Positions 2,517 to 53,414 of a stretch of DNA of 64,000 bases are shown here, piece by piece. Within the stretch, counting starts at the first letter, position 1. Every line of letters starts with the position of its first letter. Made by a program: the position numbers and the translations under genes. The notes under the pieces were generated by a model. That model was given only the letters and a program-made list of their open reading frames with translations, searched no databases and was not told the origin of the DNA. The DNA is from Acidobacteriota bacterium (GTDB taxonomy: Bacteria > Acidobacteriota > Blastocatellia > UBA7656), in the NCBI GenBank assembly GCA_038040445.1, contig JBBPIG010000017.1, positions 62,001 to 126,000 on the forward strand. The letters are read 5' to 3'.

Positions 2517-4538
2517 TCAACTCCCCGCGATGTAAGGCCGACTCTGCACGATGTAGAGCTTGCCCTGTCGAAAGACCCATTCGATGTCTTGATCACGCCC
2601 GCCGAACACTCGCTTGATTTCAAGCGCAACTCGGGCTAGCCGCCTCAACATCGCGTCAGTCAGCACGCGGCGTTGCTGTTCAATCGTCACTTCCTTGACG
2701 CCTCCGCGCTCGTCAAACGCCAGCATTGTATCTTCGTCCGAACGCGTCAGCACCTGAATCGTTCCCGCGCCCGGGCGGTAGATGGCCTGCTCGGCCACTC
2801 GACGGCCTTCGACGACTTTTATGCCGAGTCCTCTTTTCGCGTTCACGTAGACCGCGTCGCGATCAGCGGAGTCGAACGGGTCGGTCGTTATCGCCACGCC
2901 TGCGCTGTCGGCGTCGATGCCTGTTTGAATCAGCACGGCCGGGTAAACGCCGAAATGATTCATGCCGAAACTCTCGCGCGCTTCATAGGCTTCGTAGTTC
3001 CATACTGAAGCCCAGACAGTTTTGATCGCTTCCATCAACTGCTCATCGGTGCGAACGTTGGGCACGGTCGTGTAGAGGCCGGCCCCGCTGAAGCTCGGCA
3101 AGTCCTCGGCATTGGTAGAGCTTCGCGCGAACAGTCCGGCGCCGGCGTATTCGCGGTGGACTTTTTCGAGAACGGCTCGGCGGAAGCTCTCGTCGTGATG
3201 GCCTTCCTCGATCCACCGGCGCATCTCGGCGAGACGGTTCTTGCGATAGCGCGGGTCGTGAACGAAGCGGTCTTCTTCGACTGCCGCGGCGATGCGCTCC
3301 TCAAGATGATTCAGGCGAATGAAGGCTTGATAAAAGTAAAATGGAATCGCAAAGCCGGCCGGGACTTCGACGCCGGGCAAGCGCGCATGCACGATCTCGC
3401 CGAGGTTCGCCGACTTGGCGCCGAAGCGAACGGCGTCACGCGCTCGCTGGCGGCTCAGGTCCGTGAGCCGGGCGTAAGCGAGATCTGCGCGCGGCGTAAT
3501 CAGGTCGCTGCGCTTCACAAATTCTCGATTGCGCTTTTCGACCTCGCGCGGATCGGCCGGCGCAAGCGAGTAGTCATTCTCGCGAACTTCAAAACGAACG
3601 TATTTGCCTTCGAGCTGCTTGAAGAGGTTGTCGGCGTTTTTGATGGTGGCGTTTGGAATCGCCCACCCCTTGGCAAGCATGTTGACGTGCGAAAGCGGCG
3701 AAGCCGGCTCGGTGGTGATGATGCCCGACAGCGGCGTCAGATGAACGGGGACCTCTTTGAAGATGACGATCTGGTTGCGATCGATCACCGTGTCCGCGGT
3801 GATACGATCGATTATTCTAAGCTGTCCGATTCCCGCGCCAAGATTCAGCGGTTGATATTGCTGGCCGGCCGCAAGCTCGCTCGCCGTGAGCAGGAGCACG
3901 GACGTTCCGGTCTTGTTCAGTTCGCCGGCTGTCTGTTCGTGAGCGAGCGAATTCGGTTTGAAATACAGCGGCGCGAAAAAGCTGCGTTTGAGAGCGCCGA
4001 TTGTTTCGCTCAACAGATTGCTGGTGAGCCGGTCCCCTTCCCAGAACTCGAACGTGAATTTGCCGGCGGTGGTTTGATACGCAATCGTGCCAAGTATGAA
4101 CCGGCGGTCGCTCTTCAGGTAGTTATTGTCGTAAAACGCGCGGCCACGTTCGAGTGATAGATATGTTGCATTCACGAAGTCTTTGTGAAACTGATACAAC
4201 CGGGAGTTGACGTAGTAGACGCGGTCACGCGAGCGGCGGTCGATTACGAACATCACGTGCGGCAGCGCGTGCAGGCGGCCTCGATAGTAGACTCGGGCCA
4301 GGAGGTCGAAGTCGGCCCTCGAGCTGATTCGCTCGAACGAGCTCGGAACCCGATCCGCTTCCCGATTTCCGGCCGGAGCTTTCTTCTCAGACTCCGGACG
4401 TCGAGGTGATGTTGGAGTTGATTGAGCAGACCGCGCTGCGGTTGTTTCGCATACGAGCGCGAGGCAAAGCGTTAGCGCCCCTGCGCGGAGGATTATCGGT
4501 CGTTGACTATCACCGATTGATCGAATCATTGATCGCAT
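2517..4538 (-). CDS. Secreted PEP/pyruvate-dikinase-like protein with permuted domain order
   Basis: About 670 residues. An N-terminal hydrophobic stretch (ILRAGALTLCLALVC) looks like a signal peptide. About residues 70-250 form an unrecognised domain. A swivelling phosphohistidine-type domain follows (TEPASPLSHVNMLAKGWAIPN, His as likely phospho-acceptor). The C-terminal half is a PPDK/PEP-synthase ATP-grasp domain (ARSSTNAEDLPSFSGAG, VYVNAKRGLGIKVVEG, DIEWVFRQGKLYIVQSRPYI). Histidine domain before ATP domain is the order of glucan water dikinases, not of PEP synthase. The substrate is unknown and a polysaccharide is possible. The start is uncertain: GTG 4556 and two ATGs (4538, 4529) are in frame, none with a good ribosome site. 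Confidence 0.8.
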   Translation of the reverse strand: MRSMIRSIGDSQRPIILRAGALTLCLALVCETTAARSAQSTPTSPRRPESEKKAPAGNREADRVPSSFERISSRADFDLLARVYYRGRLHALPHVMFVIDRRSRDRVYYVNSRLYQFHKDFVNATYLSLERGRAFYDNNYLKSDRRFILGTIAYQTTAGKFTFEFWEGDRLTSNLLSETIGALKRSFFAPLYFKPNSLAHEQTAGELNKTGTSVLLLTASELAAGQQYQPLNLGAGIGQLRIIDRITADTVIDRNQIVIFKEVPVHLTPLSGIITTEPASPLSHVNMLAKGWAIPNATIKNADNLFKQLEGKYVRFEVRENDYSLAPADPREVEKRNREFVKRSDLITPRADLAYARLTDLSRQRARDAVRFGAKSANLGEIVHARLPGVEVPAGFAIPFYFYQAFIRLNHLEERIAAAVEEDRFVHDPRYRKNRLAEMRRWIEEGHHDESFRRAVLEKVHREYAGAGLFARSSTNAEDLPSFSGAGLYTTVPNVRTDEQLMEAIKTVWASVWNYEAYEARESFGMNHFGVYPAVLIQTGIDADSAGVAITTDPFDSADRDAVYVNAKRGLGIKVVEGRRVAEQAIYRPGAGTIQVLTRSDEDTMLAFDERGGVKEVTIEQQRRVLTDAMLRRLARVALEIKRVFGGRDQDIEWVFRQGKLYIVQSRPYIAGS

Positions 4539-46751: not shown

Positions 46752-46976
46752 ATGAGCACCGGTGAATTGGTGAAGCAAGTCAAAGCGCTACCGCGTCGTG
46801 AGCGACAGAAGGTCTTCAAAGCGCTCCTCGCACTCGAAGTGAACGAGCAAGCACATTCGCCAATGAAGACTAAGCGTGTGAAATGGCCGGATGTTGAAGC
46901 GCGAGCGAAGCGCATCTTTGGCAATAGCGTGCTTCCGAATCTGGTTCTGCTGGATCGCGAGGAAGAGACCCTCTGA
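46752..46976 (+). CDS. Small antitoxin-like protein of a PIN pair
   Basis: A 74-residue protein starting with MSTGELVKQVKALPRRERQK, then a conserved C-terminal block, VKWPDVEARAKRIFGNSVLP. The block is shared almost unchanged with the gene at 60979-61203, so this is a named-by-homology family. The PIN gene starts six bases after its stop. The antitoxin role is inferred from this position. Confidence 0.82.
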   Translation: MSTGELVKQVKALPRRERQKVFKALLALEVNEQAHSPMKTKRVKWPDVEARAKRIFGNSVLPNLVLLDREEETL

Positions 46977-46982
46977 ACCATA

Positions 46983-47417
46983 ATGGACCATTACGCTGAC
47001 AGCAGCTTCCTCGTCTCCTGCTATCTATTGGACGCTAATACACCACTGGCAAAAGCTTACTTGTCTGGGACGAGCGTGCCACTGGCCTGGACGGCATTGC
47101 ACGCGCTGGAGGTCAGAAATGCGTTCGAGTTGGGTGTCTTTCGCGGCCTGTTGACCGCAGCCGATGTTGCGGCAGCTTGGGCGAATCTGGAGAGCGACCT
47201 GAGGAGTGCCCGCCTGGTTCGTGCGACGGTTAAGTGGCCGGCTGCATTTCGCCGAGCGGCGCGGATGAGCGAACGGCATTCAGCGACAGCCGGCACGCGT
47301 AGTCTCGATATCCTGCATGTCGCTGCGGCGAAATCCATGCGCGCGATTGAGTTCATTTCTTTCGATGGGCGACAGCGGTCACTTGCGAGCGCTACCGGAT
47401 TCCGAGTGGCACCCTAG
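46983..47417 (+). CDS. PIN-domain toxin
   Basis: A 144-residue PIN-fold nuclease. Acidic metal residues are visible: Asp in YADSSFLVSCYL, Glu in ALHALEVRNAFEL, Asp in TRSLDILHVAAAK and Asp in FISFDGRQRSLA. It is coupled to the small gene upstream. Its last 26 bases overlap the 3' end of the AbrB-type gene on the opposite strand (47392-47676), so the two transcripts are partly antisense. Confidence 0.85.
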   Translation: MDHYADSSFLVSCYLLDANTPLAKAYLSGTSVPLAWTALHALEVRNAFELGVFRGLLTAADVAAAWANLESDLRSARLVRATVKWPAAFRRAARMSERHSATAGTRSLDILHVAAAKSMRAIEFISFDGRQRSLASATGFRVAP

Positions 47418-47676
47418 TTTTGGCCCGCTCCTTCATATTGCGCTGGAGAGACTCGATCATTTGATCGGCAGTGTCGAAGGGACCGTACGTGCGGCCTCTG
47501 CGAATATCTTCCAGTCCTTCTTCAATCCGCCTGTCAATGAGGCTCTTGGGCGTGAGCGTGATCTTTCCCTTCTCAAACCTTGCTTCTAGCAGATCGCCTA
47601 CATTCAAGCCGGCCCGTTCGCGGAGCGCGGATGGGAGCGTAACCTCACCTTTGGGTTTCACTTTGACTAACGACAT
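47392..47676 (-). CDS. AbrB/MazE-type antitoxin or regulator
   Basis: A 94-residue protein with the swapped-hairpin AbrB N-terminus (LVKVKPKGEVTLPSALRERA, LNVGDLLEARFEKGKITLTP), a DNA-binding fold used by many antitoxins. The C-terminal half is basic and helical (EGLEDIRRGRTYGPFDTADQ) and often binds a PIN or MazF toxin. No toxin follows on its own strand. The adjacent PIN gene faces it, so pairing with that toxin is uncertain. Confidence 0.85.
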   Translation of the reverse strand: MSLVKVKPKGEVTLPSALRERAGLNVGDLLEARFEKGKITLTPKSLIDRRIEEGLEDIRRGRTYGPFDTADQMIESLQRNMKERAKTRVPLGIR

Positions 47677-49187: not shown

Positions 49188-49616
49188 GGACCAGGTAGAA
49201 GGGCAAACTGCGTTCCAATCACAAACGGCAATACCGATATTGAACGACCTTAGTTGCAGCCGTCTCCGGCGTGCGTGACTAGGAATGATCCTGGGACGCG
49301 GAGCAGCGCAGACTAGGTTTGCTCTGTGTGACACCCGGCAAAGCAATATGGTTTGCTAGAGCGGACCGGAGGCAAGCAGAGGGAAGGCTCTTTGCCAACC
49401 TTGGGTTCTGACCAAGCAGAGCCGTTTTCTGCTTGCTTCAAGAAATCATTGTCCGCCCATTTGTGACTTATTCTGCCCGTCTGAAATCAAACAAACCTCA
49501 GGAGCCGAGAGGCTGCCGAGACGAGGTCTATCCAATGCGATGAAAGAACAAATATCACTTGCCCGCAGTGTTGCGCGCATTGAGAAACCATCGCTCAGGC
49601 AAGTCTCGATGAACGG
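49188..49616. other. Intergenic region, nothing recognised
   Basis: No conserved open frame was seen. A plus-strand frame from 48879 ends inside it and a minus-strand frame reaches into it, but neither shows a known motif. The G+C content falls near the right end, at the edge of the AT-rich cassette. Confidence 0.45.
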
Positions 49617-51359
49617 TTAGACGTATTGCCTTGCTCTACATTTTTGCAACAGCTGCTGAAGCTCGGATAGTTGCTTATTAATTTCGTTTCTTCGGCTGCT
49701 GAATTCGTATTCGACTCTCGCCTTAGCGCTTTCATTTTCGTGTTCACTTCTCTCTATTCGCTTCGAGAGTTGATTCTTCGGTATTGTGACTGACAAGAAT
49801 TTTAGAAGGATTTGAAGGACGCCAAAAATGATGATTGGGCCAAGAAAAGTAGTTCCTAAAAACAAGAGAATGGGCCCCCCCATGTTTCCACCCCTCCCAA
49901 ATTGATCAGATGGCCTCATAAGTGGCTGCGCAATAGACCATCCTATTGCAGCAGAAGGGAGAAATAAGATAGCGTACAACCAACCAAAGATACTGTCACT
50001 GCTCTTTCCTTTTATGTTTTCACGCTCCTGTTTTAGAGCGTAAACGTGTTGATTCATCGTGGCCATTTCTTGATTCATTTCCAAATCGAGTCGACGTAAA
50101 TTACTCTCCGTAATTGAAATCTTCTCCGAGAGAGTATCTTCCGCAATTTTGAAAGCCTGCTCGCTCCATTCGTTAGCCTTCGGGAGTATGCCACTATAAG
50201 TGAAAAAGCCCCCTTTCTTGAATTCTTGCTCCAGAGTATTTGAGGCATTAATGTTTTCAGCTAAGCGGTTGTGCGCCCCAACTTTTTGCGCTGTTTCTAT
50301 GGCGCGATTGAGTTGATCAATAGCATGCCGCGCTTTCTGTCCATACTCATCTTTCAGTTTGACCAACAGGGCTTGCACCTTTGGTTTTGGCGCAAGGTCT
50401 CCATCAGTCGTTGTCTTTACTGCGTAGAATCTTTCTGCTCTTACTACTCCTTCGAGCACTTCTGCGGCTTCTGACTCAGCGCCCCCTGCGGCGAGGGCCT
50501 TTGCCTTAACAAAGCCGGCCTCTAGCAGGGATGGCATCAGTGCGAGGGCTCTGTCGGAAAGCTCAACCGCATCTGCCAGTTTTCCTTGCGCGTAACAGGT
50601 GATGCCCGCCTGATGGTAAGATTCTGCGGCTGCGGCTTGCGGCATTATGGATTGTTCAGCCAAATTCGCACCGACACCGTTTGTAAGGACATCAAAGGCC
50701 CTCTCTGCATTTGGACCTGACTCTACAACAGCATACTTTGCCGCTTTTCTAAAGTAGGCCTCTGCCTTTGGCAGATCAAGGAGGTCTGGAGAATGGCGGT
50801 AAATCCTCCCGATAGTATGCAGCACAACATAATCAGTTTTTTCGCGTTTTTCTGCCTCCAGCAGATTGTCTATCGCATCTTGATAGAGGTCACTGTCAAG
50901 AGCGGCGTTTTTGTAATGTTTGAATCCCTGTTCAATAAAATACTGACGCTCTTTTTGTATATCAGGAATGCGAAGCAGAAGAGCGATGTTTCCTAGTAAA
51001 AGATTAGAGATTCTCTGCTGGTCAATCACCTGGGACAATCGCCAGTCAAGCATAGTAGCCATACGATCAACAGACATTTCTAGGGTCGAGAGCCCTGATG
51101 CAAGTTCAGAGAAGCCTTCGTCTAGCCTACCAACAACCATGGTGGCTGCATTTGTTATTGCTTCTGCTTGTTGGCGTGAAGCCTCATCAGTTGATGATCT
51201 CATTGCCTCGGAAGCTTTCCTAATTTCAGTTTCGTATGACTTGGTTTGAGAACGAATAGCAGAAGTAATATCAGTGGTGTACTCCTGCTGCTGTAGATAT
51301 CGCTTCCATTGAGAATAAGCGGCCTCTCCCGATGCTACATTATGAACAAAGTTTGCCAT
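49617..51359 (-). CDS. Large helical membrane protein of the CFI-box cassette
   Basis: A 580-residue protein with AAAGGAG eight bases before ATG. About residues 30-110 are a long helix (EIRKASEAMRSSTDEASRQQ); 130-220 contain the conserved LLLRIPDIQKERQYFIEQGF and YVVLHTIGRIYRHSPDLLDL, LPKAEAYFRKAAKYAVVES blocks, a TPR-like domain known from a widespread hypothetical family. Further TPRs lie to about 310 and a coiled coil at 400-445. Two membrane helices (GWLYAILFLPSAAIGWSIA, ILLFLGTTFLGPIIIFGVL) precede a charged C-terminal helix. Base composition is clearly AT-richer than the rest of the window. Function unknown. Confidence 0.8.
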   Translation of the reverse strand: MANFVHNVASGEAAYSQWKRYLQQQEYTTDITSAIRSQTKSYETEIRKASEAMRSSTDEASRQQAEAITNAATMVVGRLDEGFSELASGLSTLEMSVDRMATMLDWRLSQVIDQQRISNLLLGNIALLLRIPDIQKERQYFIEQGFKHYKNAALDSDLYQDAIDNLLEAEKREKTDYVVLHTIGRIYRHSPDLLDLPKAEAYFRKAAKYAVVESGPNAERAFDVLTNGVGANLAEQSIMPQAAAAESYHQAGITCYAQGKLADAVELSDRALALMPSLLEAGFVKAKALAAGGAESEAAEVLEGVVRAERFYAVKTTTDGDLAPKPKVQALLVKLKDEYGQKARHAIDQLNRAIETAQKVGAHNRLAENINASNTLEQEFKKGGFFTYSGILPKANEWSEQAFKIAEDTLSEKISITESNLRRLDLEMNQEMATMNQHVYALKQERENIKGKSSDSIFGWLYAILFLPSAAIGWSIAQPLMRPSDQFGRGGNMGGPILLFLGTTFLGPIIIFGVLQILLKFLSVTIPKNQLSKRIERSEHENESAKARVEYEFSSRRNEINKQLSELQQLLQKCRARQYV

Positions 51360-51412
51360 TTACTCTGCTCCTTTGTGCAAGTTATCTATCCCGCTTGTAC
51401 CTGGTGGCCGAG

Positions 51413-51589
51413 TCATTTGTTGTACAACCAAGCCTCAGCTTTTGTCATTGCTTCTTTTGCTGAGTATGCCTTGCCAACATAAGTCCAACCTGCCCAATCA
51501 ACATAGACATCTTTGTCATAAGAACTCCATGCCACTTTGAAGAGTTGTCCACTACCCGAGCGAACTGTGCCGATTGTCGGTGCAGCCAT
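51413..51589 (-). CDS. 58-residue protein of the CFI-box cassette
   Basis: ATG 51589 is preceded by AAAGGAG at the correct distance. The product (APTIGTVRSGSGQLFKVAWS, then WAGWTYVGKAYSAKEAMTKA) is a compact, aromatic-rich protein with no known family. It lies between the two larger genes of the cassette with gaps of 13 and 53 bases. Its strong ribosome site and conserved spacing favour a real gene. Confidence 0.65.
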   Translation of the reverse strand: MAAPTIGTVRSGSGQLFKVAWSSYDKDVYVDWAGWTYVGKAYSAKEAMTKAEAWLYNK

Positions 51590-51602
51590 ATGTAAACTCC
51601 TT

Positions 51603-52208
51603 TCACTTTTTGATCCGTCGCAAAAGCGGTTGAAGCAGTACATCCCTTGTGATCTTTCTTAGGAGACGGGATTTAGACAGCAGAAAGGCGAAAGGTGGTG
51701 ACACTTTATAGTAAGTAGTAACGAATATCCTTCCCCTTCTTGAGTTAAGCAGTACGTCATCTCGAAAACGACGAAATAGTACTACCTCTGGAGCAAGGGG
51801 GGAACCATAGGTTGCTGTTGCAATAAAGCAAACCCCAGAGGAGGTTTTCGGTTCGCGTAGTGTCGTACTGTTCAAAGGATTCACGCAACCGCATTCACAG
51901 GTTATTGACTCCAAAATTGTCTGGTCACAGCGGCCACACTCCACGCTAACCCGGGAAGGACTTCCACCTAAACCAATGCTAGTGCTTGAGCAATTGGGAC
52001 AGCCCTTAAGATAATCCGCAAAGCGGTGAATCTTGCCGCATTTCATACACTCAACTGCTAAGTTCGGCAGATTCTCGACAAACTTTCGATCCTCAGAAGT
52101 TGAGGAATCCGAGAGCCCTTCAATCGCTCGGTTAATGCGCAGATTGTAAGTTGCAGGACCAACTCCGATTGGCTTCCATTCAATTTTCTTTTCAACATCA
52201 GATTCCAT
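51603..52208 (-). CDS. Zinc-ribbon protein with C-terminal CFI-box
   Basis: A 201-residue protein with AAAGGAG seven bases before ATG. Residues about 50-110 hold cysteine pairs: VECMKCGKIH, GCPNCSSTS, VECGRCDQT and CECGCVN, enough for two zinc ribbons. The C-terminal 75 residues start with CFIATATYGSPLAPEVVLFR and continue FRDDVLLNSRRGRIFVTTYY, the CFI-box motif that occurs at protein C-termini in many bacteria and is suspected to be a processing or sorting signal. First gene of the AT-rich cassette. Confidence 0.85.
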   Translation of the reverse strand: MESDVEKKIEWKPIGVGPATYNLRINRAIEGLSDSSTSEDRKFVENLPNLAVECMKCGKIHRFADYLKGCPNCSSTSIGLGGSPSRVSVECGRCDQTILESITCECGCVNPLNSTTLREPKTSSGVCFIATATYGSPLAPEVVLFRRFRDDVLLNSRRGRIFVTTYYKVSPPFAFLLSKSRLLRKITRDVLLQPLLRRIKK

Positions 52209-52886
52209 AAACAGTCTCCTTTCTAGTTCTGGCTTTATGGCAGATTTCCCCCAATCAGTCTCTTCGCCTAGTTCGTCTGGTACTGCTTTGAGAACAGATG
52301 CTCAGAATCAAGATTATTGATTCTGAATCGGGCCTACTTCTGTGAAGGCGGCCAGTCTATTTCTAAATCTTTTTCCTGTCAATCCCGACAATGCGGGATA
52401 CTGCAATAGTAAGCGTCTAACTTCAAATCATCGTACTAAAAGCGGCGTGGAATGGTACCGCCGTTAGTACACCTAATCAAGTTGACAAAGTAGCGTAGCC
52501 CAGACTAGCCCGTCCAACAGTCAATCGAACTGCTCGACGATATACGCCAGCACGAAGTCCGAAGAGCTATCGAGCGAGACTACGAAGAAGAGTTCGTCAG
52601 CGAGACGTGACCGAGCTGAGTGAGCGAGAGGCGAGTCCAGCCGAGCGCGTCCGCGATGAGGGCATTCCGACGAGCCCGAGGTGCAGTGCTGGCGGGGAGC
52701 TCTTACGCTATTCAGACCGAGCGCCTAGAACCGGGTACAAAAATAGACCCCCGGGTCGAAATATGTACCCTGGGTACGAAAAATGTAGCCCTCGTTTGCT
52801 CCCACACCGCTGCCTGTTGAAGACTGAGCAAATGGCTGCTCGTGCTCGATGTGACGTGTCTGGGAAGGGACCTGAGTAAGATCGGC
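52209..52886. other. 678-base non-coding stretch with a gene remnant
   Basis: No complete gene was recognised. At about 52515-52610 a plus-strand frame reads ELLDDIRQHEVRRAIERDYE then EEFVSET and a stop, which looks like the tail of a real protein without its start. Tandem 20-bp repeats lie at 52731-52790. The left part belongs to the AT-rich region. Confidence 0.45.
52731..52790. repeat. Three tandem imperfect 20-bp repeats
   Basis: Units CCGGGTACAAAAATAGACC, CCCGGGTCGAAATATGTACC and CTGGGTACGAAAAATGTAGC follow directly on each other. They share the pattern C-GGGT-cgaAAatatGtaC. No function is evident. Confidence 0.55.
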
Positions 52887-53414
52887 TTAGTGCGGGAAGT
52901 AAATAGAGCGGGTAGACTGGGTTCCTGTGGGAGCAGGTCGATACGCGAGCGGAGAAGTATTGGCGGACGAAGAGGCCTGGTTGACTGGCGTTTGAACCTG
53001 CAGGCGCGGCTGCAGAGAGAAGATATTCGTCTGAGCTATACGTCTGAAAACCGATACTCCGCGCGCAACGTAACTTCGTGTTTCGCGGTAGGGCGGCACT
53101 CTATAGCCTGAGTTAATGACTGCATTCTCACCTGCGTTATAGCCCGCCAGCACCAGGTCAATCCTTCCTTCAAACATCATATTGAGGGTTCTGACATACC
53201 TTGCGGCAGCGTCGATCGATTGCAGAGGATCGTGCAAATCGCTGAGGGTGAGTAAGCCATACCTACGTCCGGTCGCAGGAATGAACTGCATCAATCCGCG
53301 GGCTCCTTTATGCGAGACAAGCTGCGGGCGAAAGCGCGTCTCAAGGTAAGCGATAGTCCACAGCGAGCCGAATAGATCGACCTGATCCTCTCGCTTGCCT
53401 TGATTTTGGCAACC
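52887..53414 (-). pseudogene. 5'-truncated lytic transglycosylase
   Basis: The frame is open from 53414 (a TGA stands at 53415-53417) but has no start codon before the active site. It still contains YLETRFRPQLVSHKGARGLM with the catalytic Glu, QFIPATGRRYGL, and AGYNAGENAVINSGYRVPPY of the SLT fold, then a low-complexity tail. From the first ATG only 135 residues would be made, without the catalytic Glu. Therefore it is most likely a remnant of a gene whose front was lost next to the repeat array. Confidence 0.7.

Follow-up and report, generated by a model that had tools for sequence, protein, structure and literature searches.

What kind of genetic unit is the AT-rich block of three genes in this window (the whole 64-kb stretch that was analyzed), how did it come to lie where it does, and what might its proteins do? 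The trio comprises three minus-strand genes at 52208-49617, with intergenic gaps of 13 and 53 nt and the sequence AAAGGAG 7-8 nt before the ATG of each gene; the ORF coordinates and ribosome sites are as the preliminary description gave them. Its claim of AT-richness also held in the G+C and codon check it had called for: the G+C content of the trio is 46%, against 56.7% (~57%) for the window, and the GC3 of gene 3 is 0.43, against a mean of 0.68 (sd 0.05) for 24 other long ORFs of the window. The composition of the trio is foreign to the window. The limits first given to the unit, 49617-52208, hold for the genes; they do not hold for its extent, since the AT-rich block reaches ~52.5 kb, past the start of gene 1, which agrees with the cassette start at 52420 proposed below. 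The landing element, the cassette ends and the decayed conjugation genes on both sides are additions of this study. An Rfam search of 46-54 kb of the window gave no matches. Just downstream of the region, at 46752-47676, lie a small gene, a PIN-like gene and an AbrB-like small gene, judged by eye to be candidate toxin-antitoxin modules.

Gene 1 (51603-52208, minus strand) encodes 201 aa, with a cysteine-rich, zinc-ribbon-like N-terminal part and a C-terminal CFI-box domain (127-193). The CFI-box identity, first read from the letters alone, was borne out by NCBIfam NF041770, which matches at 86.8 bits (curated cut-off 40). Like the CFI-box-CTERM proteins of NF041770, the protein carries the C-terminal CFIATA...FRD...YY..SPP domain; it differs from them in its cysteine-rich N-terminal part and its 58-aa neighbor gene. 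The zinc ribbons claimed for it found partial support: ten cysteines of the protein (P0001) fit zinc-ribbon pairs, but no zinc-ribbon Pfam model matched above its cut-off. The predicted structure is confident only over ~127-201, where it forms four helices; structure comparison of the CFI-box model gave no match, and the literature searched contained no mention of the CFI-box. Gene 3 (49617-51359, minus strand) encodes 580 aa, with a helical N-terminal part, a weak TPR stretch and one or more hydrophobic C-terminal segments. Its match to TPR_12 (22.8 bits, E=1e-4) lies under the Pfam cut-off of 30.1, as do its other weak TPR matches, so the proposed TPR stretch is a resemblance only. Where two membrane helices had been proposed, hydropathy shows one strong membrane-like segment (~493-528) and a second, weaker one. 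Searches of 296 other genomes and of plasmids, phages and IMG/VR did not turn up the 580-aa protein.

Gene 2 (51413-51589, minus strand) encodes the 58-aa protein, which was said to have no family, and indeed none was found in Pfam, NCBIfam, PHROGs or PADLOC. Its structure is predicted as four strands and a C-terminal helix (pLDDT 88.8, pTM 0.69); structure comparison gave no confident match, and a resemblance to an AP2/arm-type DNA-binding fold (1gcc_A, Z 3.3 over 43 residues, rmsd 2.7) did not rise above unrelated rows. Three homologs were found, 57-81% identical, in records labeled Chloracidobacterium, Acetobacterium woodii and Syntrophaceae (the species label of the record L003 is doubtful for a 7-kb contig). 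In an alignment of the four sequences, 26 of 58 columns are invariant, and the three homologs and these columns indicate that the gene is real. No relatives were found in plasmids, phages or IMG/VR, and a search of 57 close relatives and of samples of 396, 345 and 348 genomes from three groups returned only genomes already known to carry one; among the 396 sampled same-phylum genomes, the window's own was the single carrier. In L003, an array of canonical attC repeats includes a two-gene cassette made up of the 58-aa and CFI-box genes and bounded by attC-like hairpins at ~3315-3375 (by eye) and 4295-4356. In L004 (contig G422:C53), an integron integrase gene stands 2.5 kb away from the 58-aa gene, which is surrounded by attC-like repeats and has a different partner gene in its cassette. 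The closest relative, L002 (81%), has no attC nearby, which counts against the cassette reading. Partners differ among L002, L003 and L004, and the gene order varies as well, the 58-aa gene being first in L003 and L004 and second in the window. The co-occurrence that the preliminary description asked about was found for the 58-aa/CFI-box pair, in L003, and not for the whole triple; the pair appears to be a module that is also mobile in the absence of gene 3. The 58-aa protein represents a new, conserved family of small proteins, which cassettes carry in distantly related bacteria.

The flanks of the trio point to the remnants of a decayed conjugation cluster, virB1-like upstream and virB8-like downstream. 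Upstream, an SLT lytic transglycosylase (virB1-like) gene lies at 52887-53294 on the minus strand; it is shorter than the 225-aa copy on contig C5 of the same genome (G000), to which 52733-53367 is 85% identical in nucleotides and whose full copy matches PF01464. Downstream, a minus-strand remnant at 48738-49290 matches the virB8-like gene region on C5 with 84-89% identity and that on G003:C56 with 80-91%; the C5 gene itself scores 21 bits against PF04335, just under the cut-off of 23.2. A third copy of these conjugation flanks (L051 4940-6410, equal to G003:C34 14940-16410) separates them by just 0.9 kb and seems to hold no large cargo. At the homologous site on G003:C56, a 946-aa gene stands between the conjugation genes in place of the trio. 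The homology of the two loci breaks at 52418, inside GTTAGAC.

This break adjoins a landing element of 60 nt (52421-52480, minus strand) that carries the promoter-like pair TTGATT-17 nt-TACCAT and the dyad GTACTAACGGCGGT and CGCCGCTTTTAGTAC, and ends at the G (52421) of a G↓TTAGAC junction. The element recurs on C1 and C16 of the same genome at unrelated loci. A covariance model detected seven copies, in four of the seven draft genomes of the family and in none of the other 114 (118 relatives searched): C17 (the window), C1, C16 and C57 of G000, G003:C56, G001:C71, and G005:C65, which is cut by the contig end 157 nt beyond the element. The window copy scores 102.7 bits, although it is one of the four sequences that built the model and that match it by construction. 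TTGRAT/TTGATT-17 nt-TANNAT is kept in all seven copies. A consensus promoter scan did not list the TTGATT/TACCAT pair of the window element; it listed another promoter-like pair at 52382-52354, between the element and gene 1, where a weak terminator-like stem is also found, and these scan results count against the favored explanation. The dyad is conserved and well paired but shows no compensatory changes, so a folded structure is not claimed; matches of the element core in IMG/VR fall in phage coding regions and were dismissed as chance. A second, weaker conserved stretch like TTAGTCTATCTCG lies ~75 nt upstream of the element at C57, C16 and C1 of G000 and at G001:C71, and on this basis the element may extend to ~150 nt.

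What follows the element resembles an integron cassette, proposed here to span 49549-52420 on the minus strand, with an approximate 3' end (~49549). It starts with TTAGACG, and GTTAGAC at 52421-52415 agrees with the crossover motif G↓TTRRRY. At the other end, the R''-type (RYYYAAC) core CGTCTAAC (49616-49623, minus strand) overlaps the stop codon of gene 3 and is an exact 8-nt complement of the cassette start GTTAGACG; it occurs only once in the 6 kb downstream of the junction. All six element copies that are not at a contig end have a cassette starting at the same position, the fixed recurrent insertion typical of attI. Every checkable copy is occupied, and the sequence that follows begins with TTRRRY or similar. 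The reverse complement of the cassette start recurs exactly at the cassette end in five of six checkable copies, over 8-11 nt: TGCGCCCTAAC at C16 (11 nt), GCACCTAAC at C1, GCGTCGAAC at G001 and GCGCTTAAC at G003 (9 nt each), and CGTCTAAC in the window (8 nt); at C57 the complement has one mismatch. Well-folded attC sites (z ~-6) were found in three cases, C1, C16 and G001:C71, and C1, C16 and C57 are followed by additional attC-like sites. Several observations count against the cassette reading. A strict scan found no canonical attC in the window, and no canonical R' was found after its 3' core; a relaxed scan alone gave a degenerate attC-like region (49490-49622, minus strand) with 7-nt arms ACTTGCC/GGCAAGT and no clear R', in which the best 120-nt fold has z = -2.5, against ~-6 at the three sites above. 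At G003:C56, too, there is no attC that folds (z +0.5), and the junction is A↓TT. A three-gene cassette of ~2.9 kb is also unusual, and systems of more than two genes have been reported absent from integrons (PMC12409362).

A search around the seven element copies turned up no adjoining integron integrase gene. The genome contains a complete integron on contig C28 (L025), with intI at 3404-4342, an attI junction near 4527 and, downstream, at least five canonical attC sites oriented like intI. On C33 (L022/L026), a truncated integron integrase precedes an almost identical attI that has a different first cassette, apparently a second, broken integron. The element was absent from the searched surroundings (up to ~1.5 kb, some shortened by contig ends) of the IntI genes and IntI fragments in the family. 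As an attI of the genome's own IntI the element was rejected: the covariance model had no match at the IntI loci searched, and the attI beside the intact intI agrees with it only in the last bases, TTCATG↓TTAGG.

Taken together, these features make it likely that the trio is one three-gene integron cassette beside a promoter-like landing element. An integron integrase would have recombined the circular cassette with a short, promoter-bearing, attI-like element that was already in place between virB1 and virB8 in the now decayed conjugation cluster, and the integrase of the C28 integron could have acted in trans. The putative promoter of the element would then drive the cassette, which would thereby occupy a first, transcribed position. 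The earlier view that the unit was horizontally acquired and self-contained is supported by its composition, its cassette boundaries and the rarity of the 58-aa gene within the phylum.

Three other explanations were weighed. The cassette may have been inserted at an attG-like genomic site, with the 60-nt element being an ordinary conserved promoter region and a good secondary target rather than an attI. Insertion at attG sites has been reported (Loot et al. 2024, cited in PMC12901181 and PMC12444791), and the disagreement with the attI beside the intact intI fits this explanation; but attG insertion is described as broadly distributed (PMC12444791), while here the same element recurs at unrelated loci with every checkable copy occupied, and further attC-like sites follow at three of them. 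We regard this explanation as rather unlikely, and the attI-like reading of the element is preferred with somewhat better than even confidence. It is improbable, in turn, that the trio is ordinary accessory cargo of the conjugation locus, acquired through recombination that was illegitimate or linked to a transposon, with complementary ends that arose by chance. Contig C5 does hold a Mokosh system in the same virB1-virB8 gap without the element, and the attC of the window is poor; however, an exact 8-mer within ~25 nt of the last stop is expected by chance at ~4 in 10,000 (a simple count, as are all such estimates here), and the same kind of end complement occurs in five of six checkable copies.

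A last alternative accepts the cassette and disputes its function: the trio would be a toxin-antitoxin or addiction module, in which the 58-aa gene stabilizes the cassette. Toxin-antitoxin cassettes are common in chromosomal integrons, and the 58-aa gene keeps different partners in its three relatives. Nevertheless, the gene order varies, no known toxin or antitoxin family was matched, and in size the 580-aa protein greatly exceeds the usual members of such modules; we hold this alternative to be a poor prospect.

For the three-gene cassette favored here, the most likely role would be that of a membrane-linked defense or stress device formed by the three proteins. In such a device, the 580-aa protein would be the membrane scaffold or the effector, the small 58-aa protein would act in binding or as an adaptor, and the cysteine-rich CFI-box protein would be a partner. 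The defense-island check suggested earlier gave a mixed answer: a PADLOC search of the trio proteins returned no family at E<=1, whereas like landing sites carry defense-type cargo. On C1 (L054 4408-5623), a DUF5343 + HEPN_Swt1 pair (PDC-M34A/B) forms the first cassette behind the element and has a clear attC; a second unit with a 158-aa membrane-like protein comes next. On C16 (L055 4327-5031), a TIR protein that matches PADLOC PDLC00424 (ThsB) over its full length is first in a cassette array after the element; at G001:C71, a 151-aa protein occupies the same locus beside a homologous gene. In the paralogous conjugation cluster on C5 (L052 6184-11438), a Mokosh-type MkoA (803.6 bits) and MkoB lie between the virB1-like and virB8-like genes. 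The 946-aa, 151-aa and small cysteine-rich cargo proteins had no match, so not all cargo is defense. Because element copies hold other cassettes that include known or candidate anti-phage defenses, the trio is a plausible new defense module. Integrons, chromosomal and mobile, are reported reservoirs of defense genes (PMC12409362); with this, the partly defense-type cargo of these sites and the lack of a PADLOC match, a defense function is possible, at somewhat less than an even chance. More tentative still is the wider proposal that dispersed, promoter-bearing solo attI-like sites without an integrase act with a distant integrase to place cassettes, often of defense genes, in a transcribed first position at several chromosomal loci, where the trio would be a new three-gene defense module. 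Integron platforms are usually recognized from an integrase or from attC clusters. If the proposal is true, a repeatedly occupied promoter-like site without a nearby integrase means that several expressed first positions can exist in one genome, and reading what follows each copy would be a way to find defense genes.

Compared with known systems, the trio resembles a CALIN (IntegronFinder, PMC9024848) in its complementary R''/R' ends, with no integrase nearby and a complete integron elsewhere in the genome. A CALIN is reported where there are two or more attC sites and no attI (PMC9024848); the window has no such set of sites, and the trio sits singly by a conserved promoter-like element, contains three genes and has a degenerate attC of its own. 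The element is like a classical integron attI with its Pc in that a promoter-like pair precedes a fixed crossover point at which the first cassette starts. It differs in occurring in several copies per genome, none with an adjoining integron integrase gene, and its sequence resembles the attI of the genome's own integrase only at the crossover. The trio shares with attG insertions (Loot et al. 2024, cited in PMC12901181 and PMC12444791) a cassette placed outside an integron, although attG sites are described there as widespread and divergent and here one 60-nt sequence recurs. Finally, the chromosomal-integron defense cassettes of Darracq et al. (2025), as presented in PMC12409362, are likewise small accessory modules in first position, and the cargo of the element is partly of the defense type; the trio differs from them in having three genes and no listed defense family, and is a candidate defense module only.
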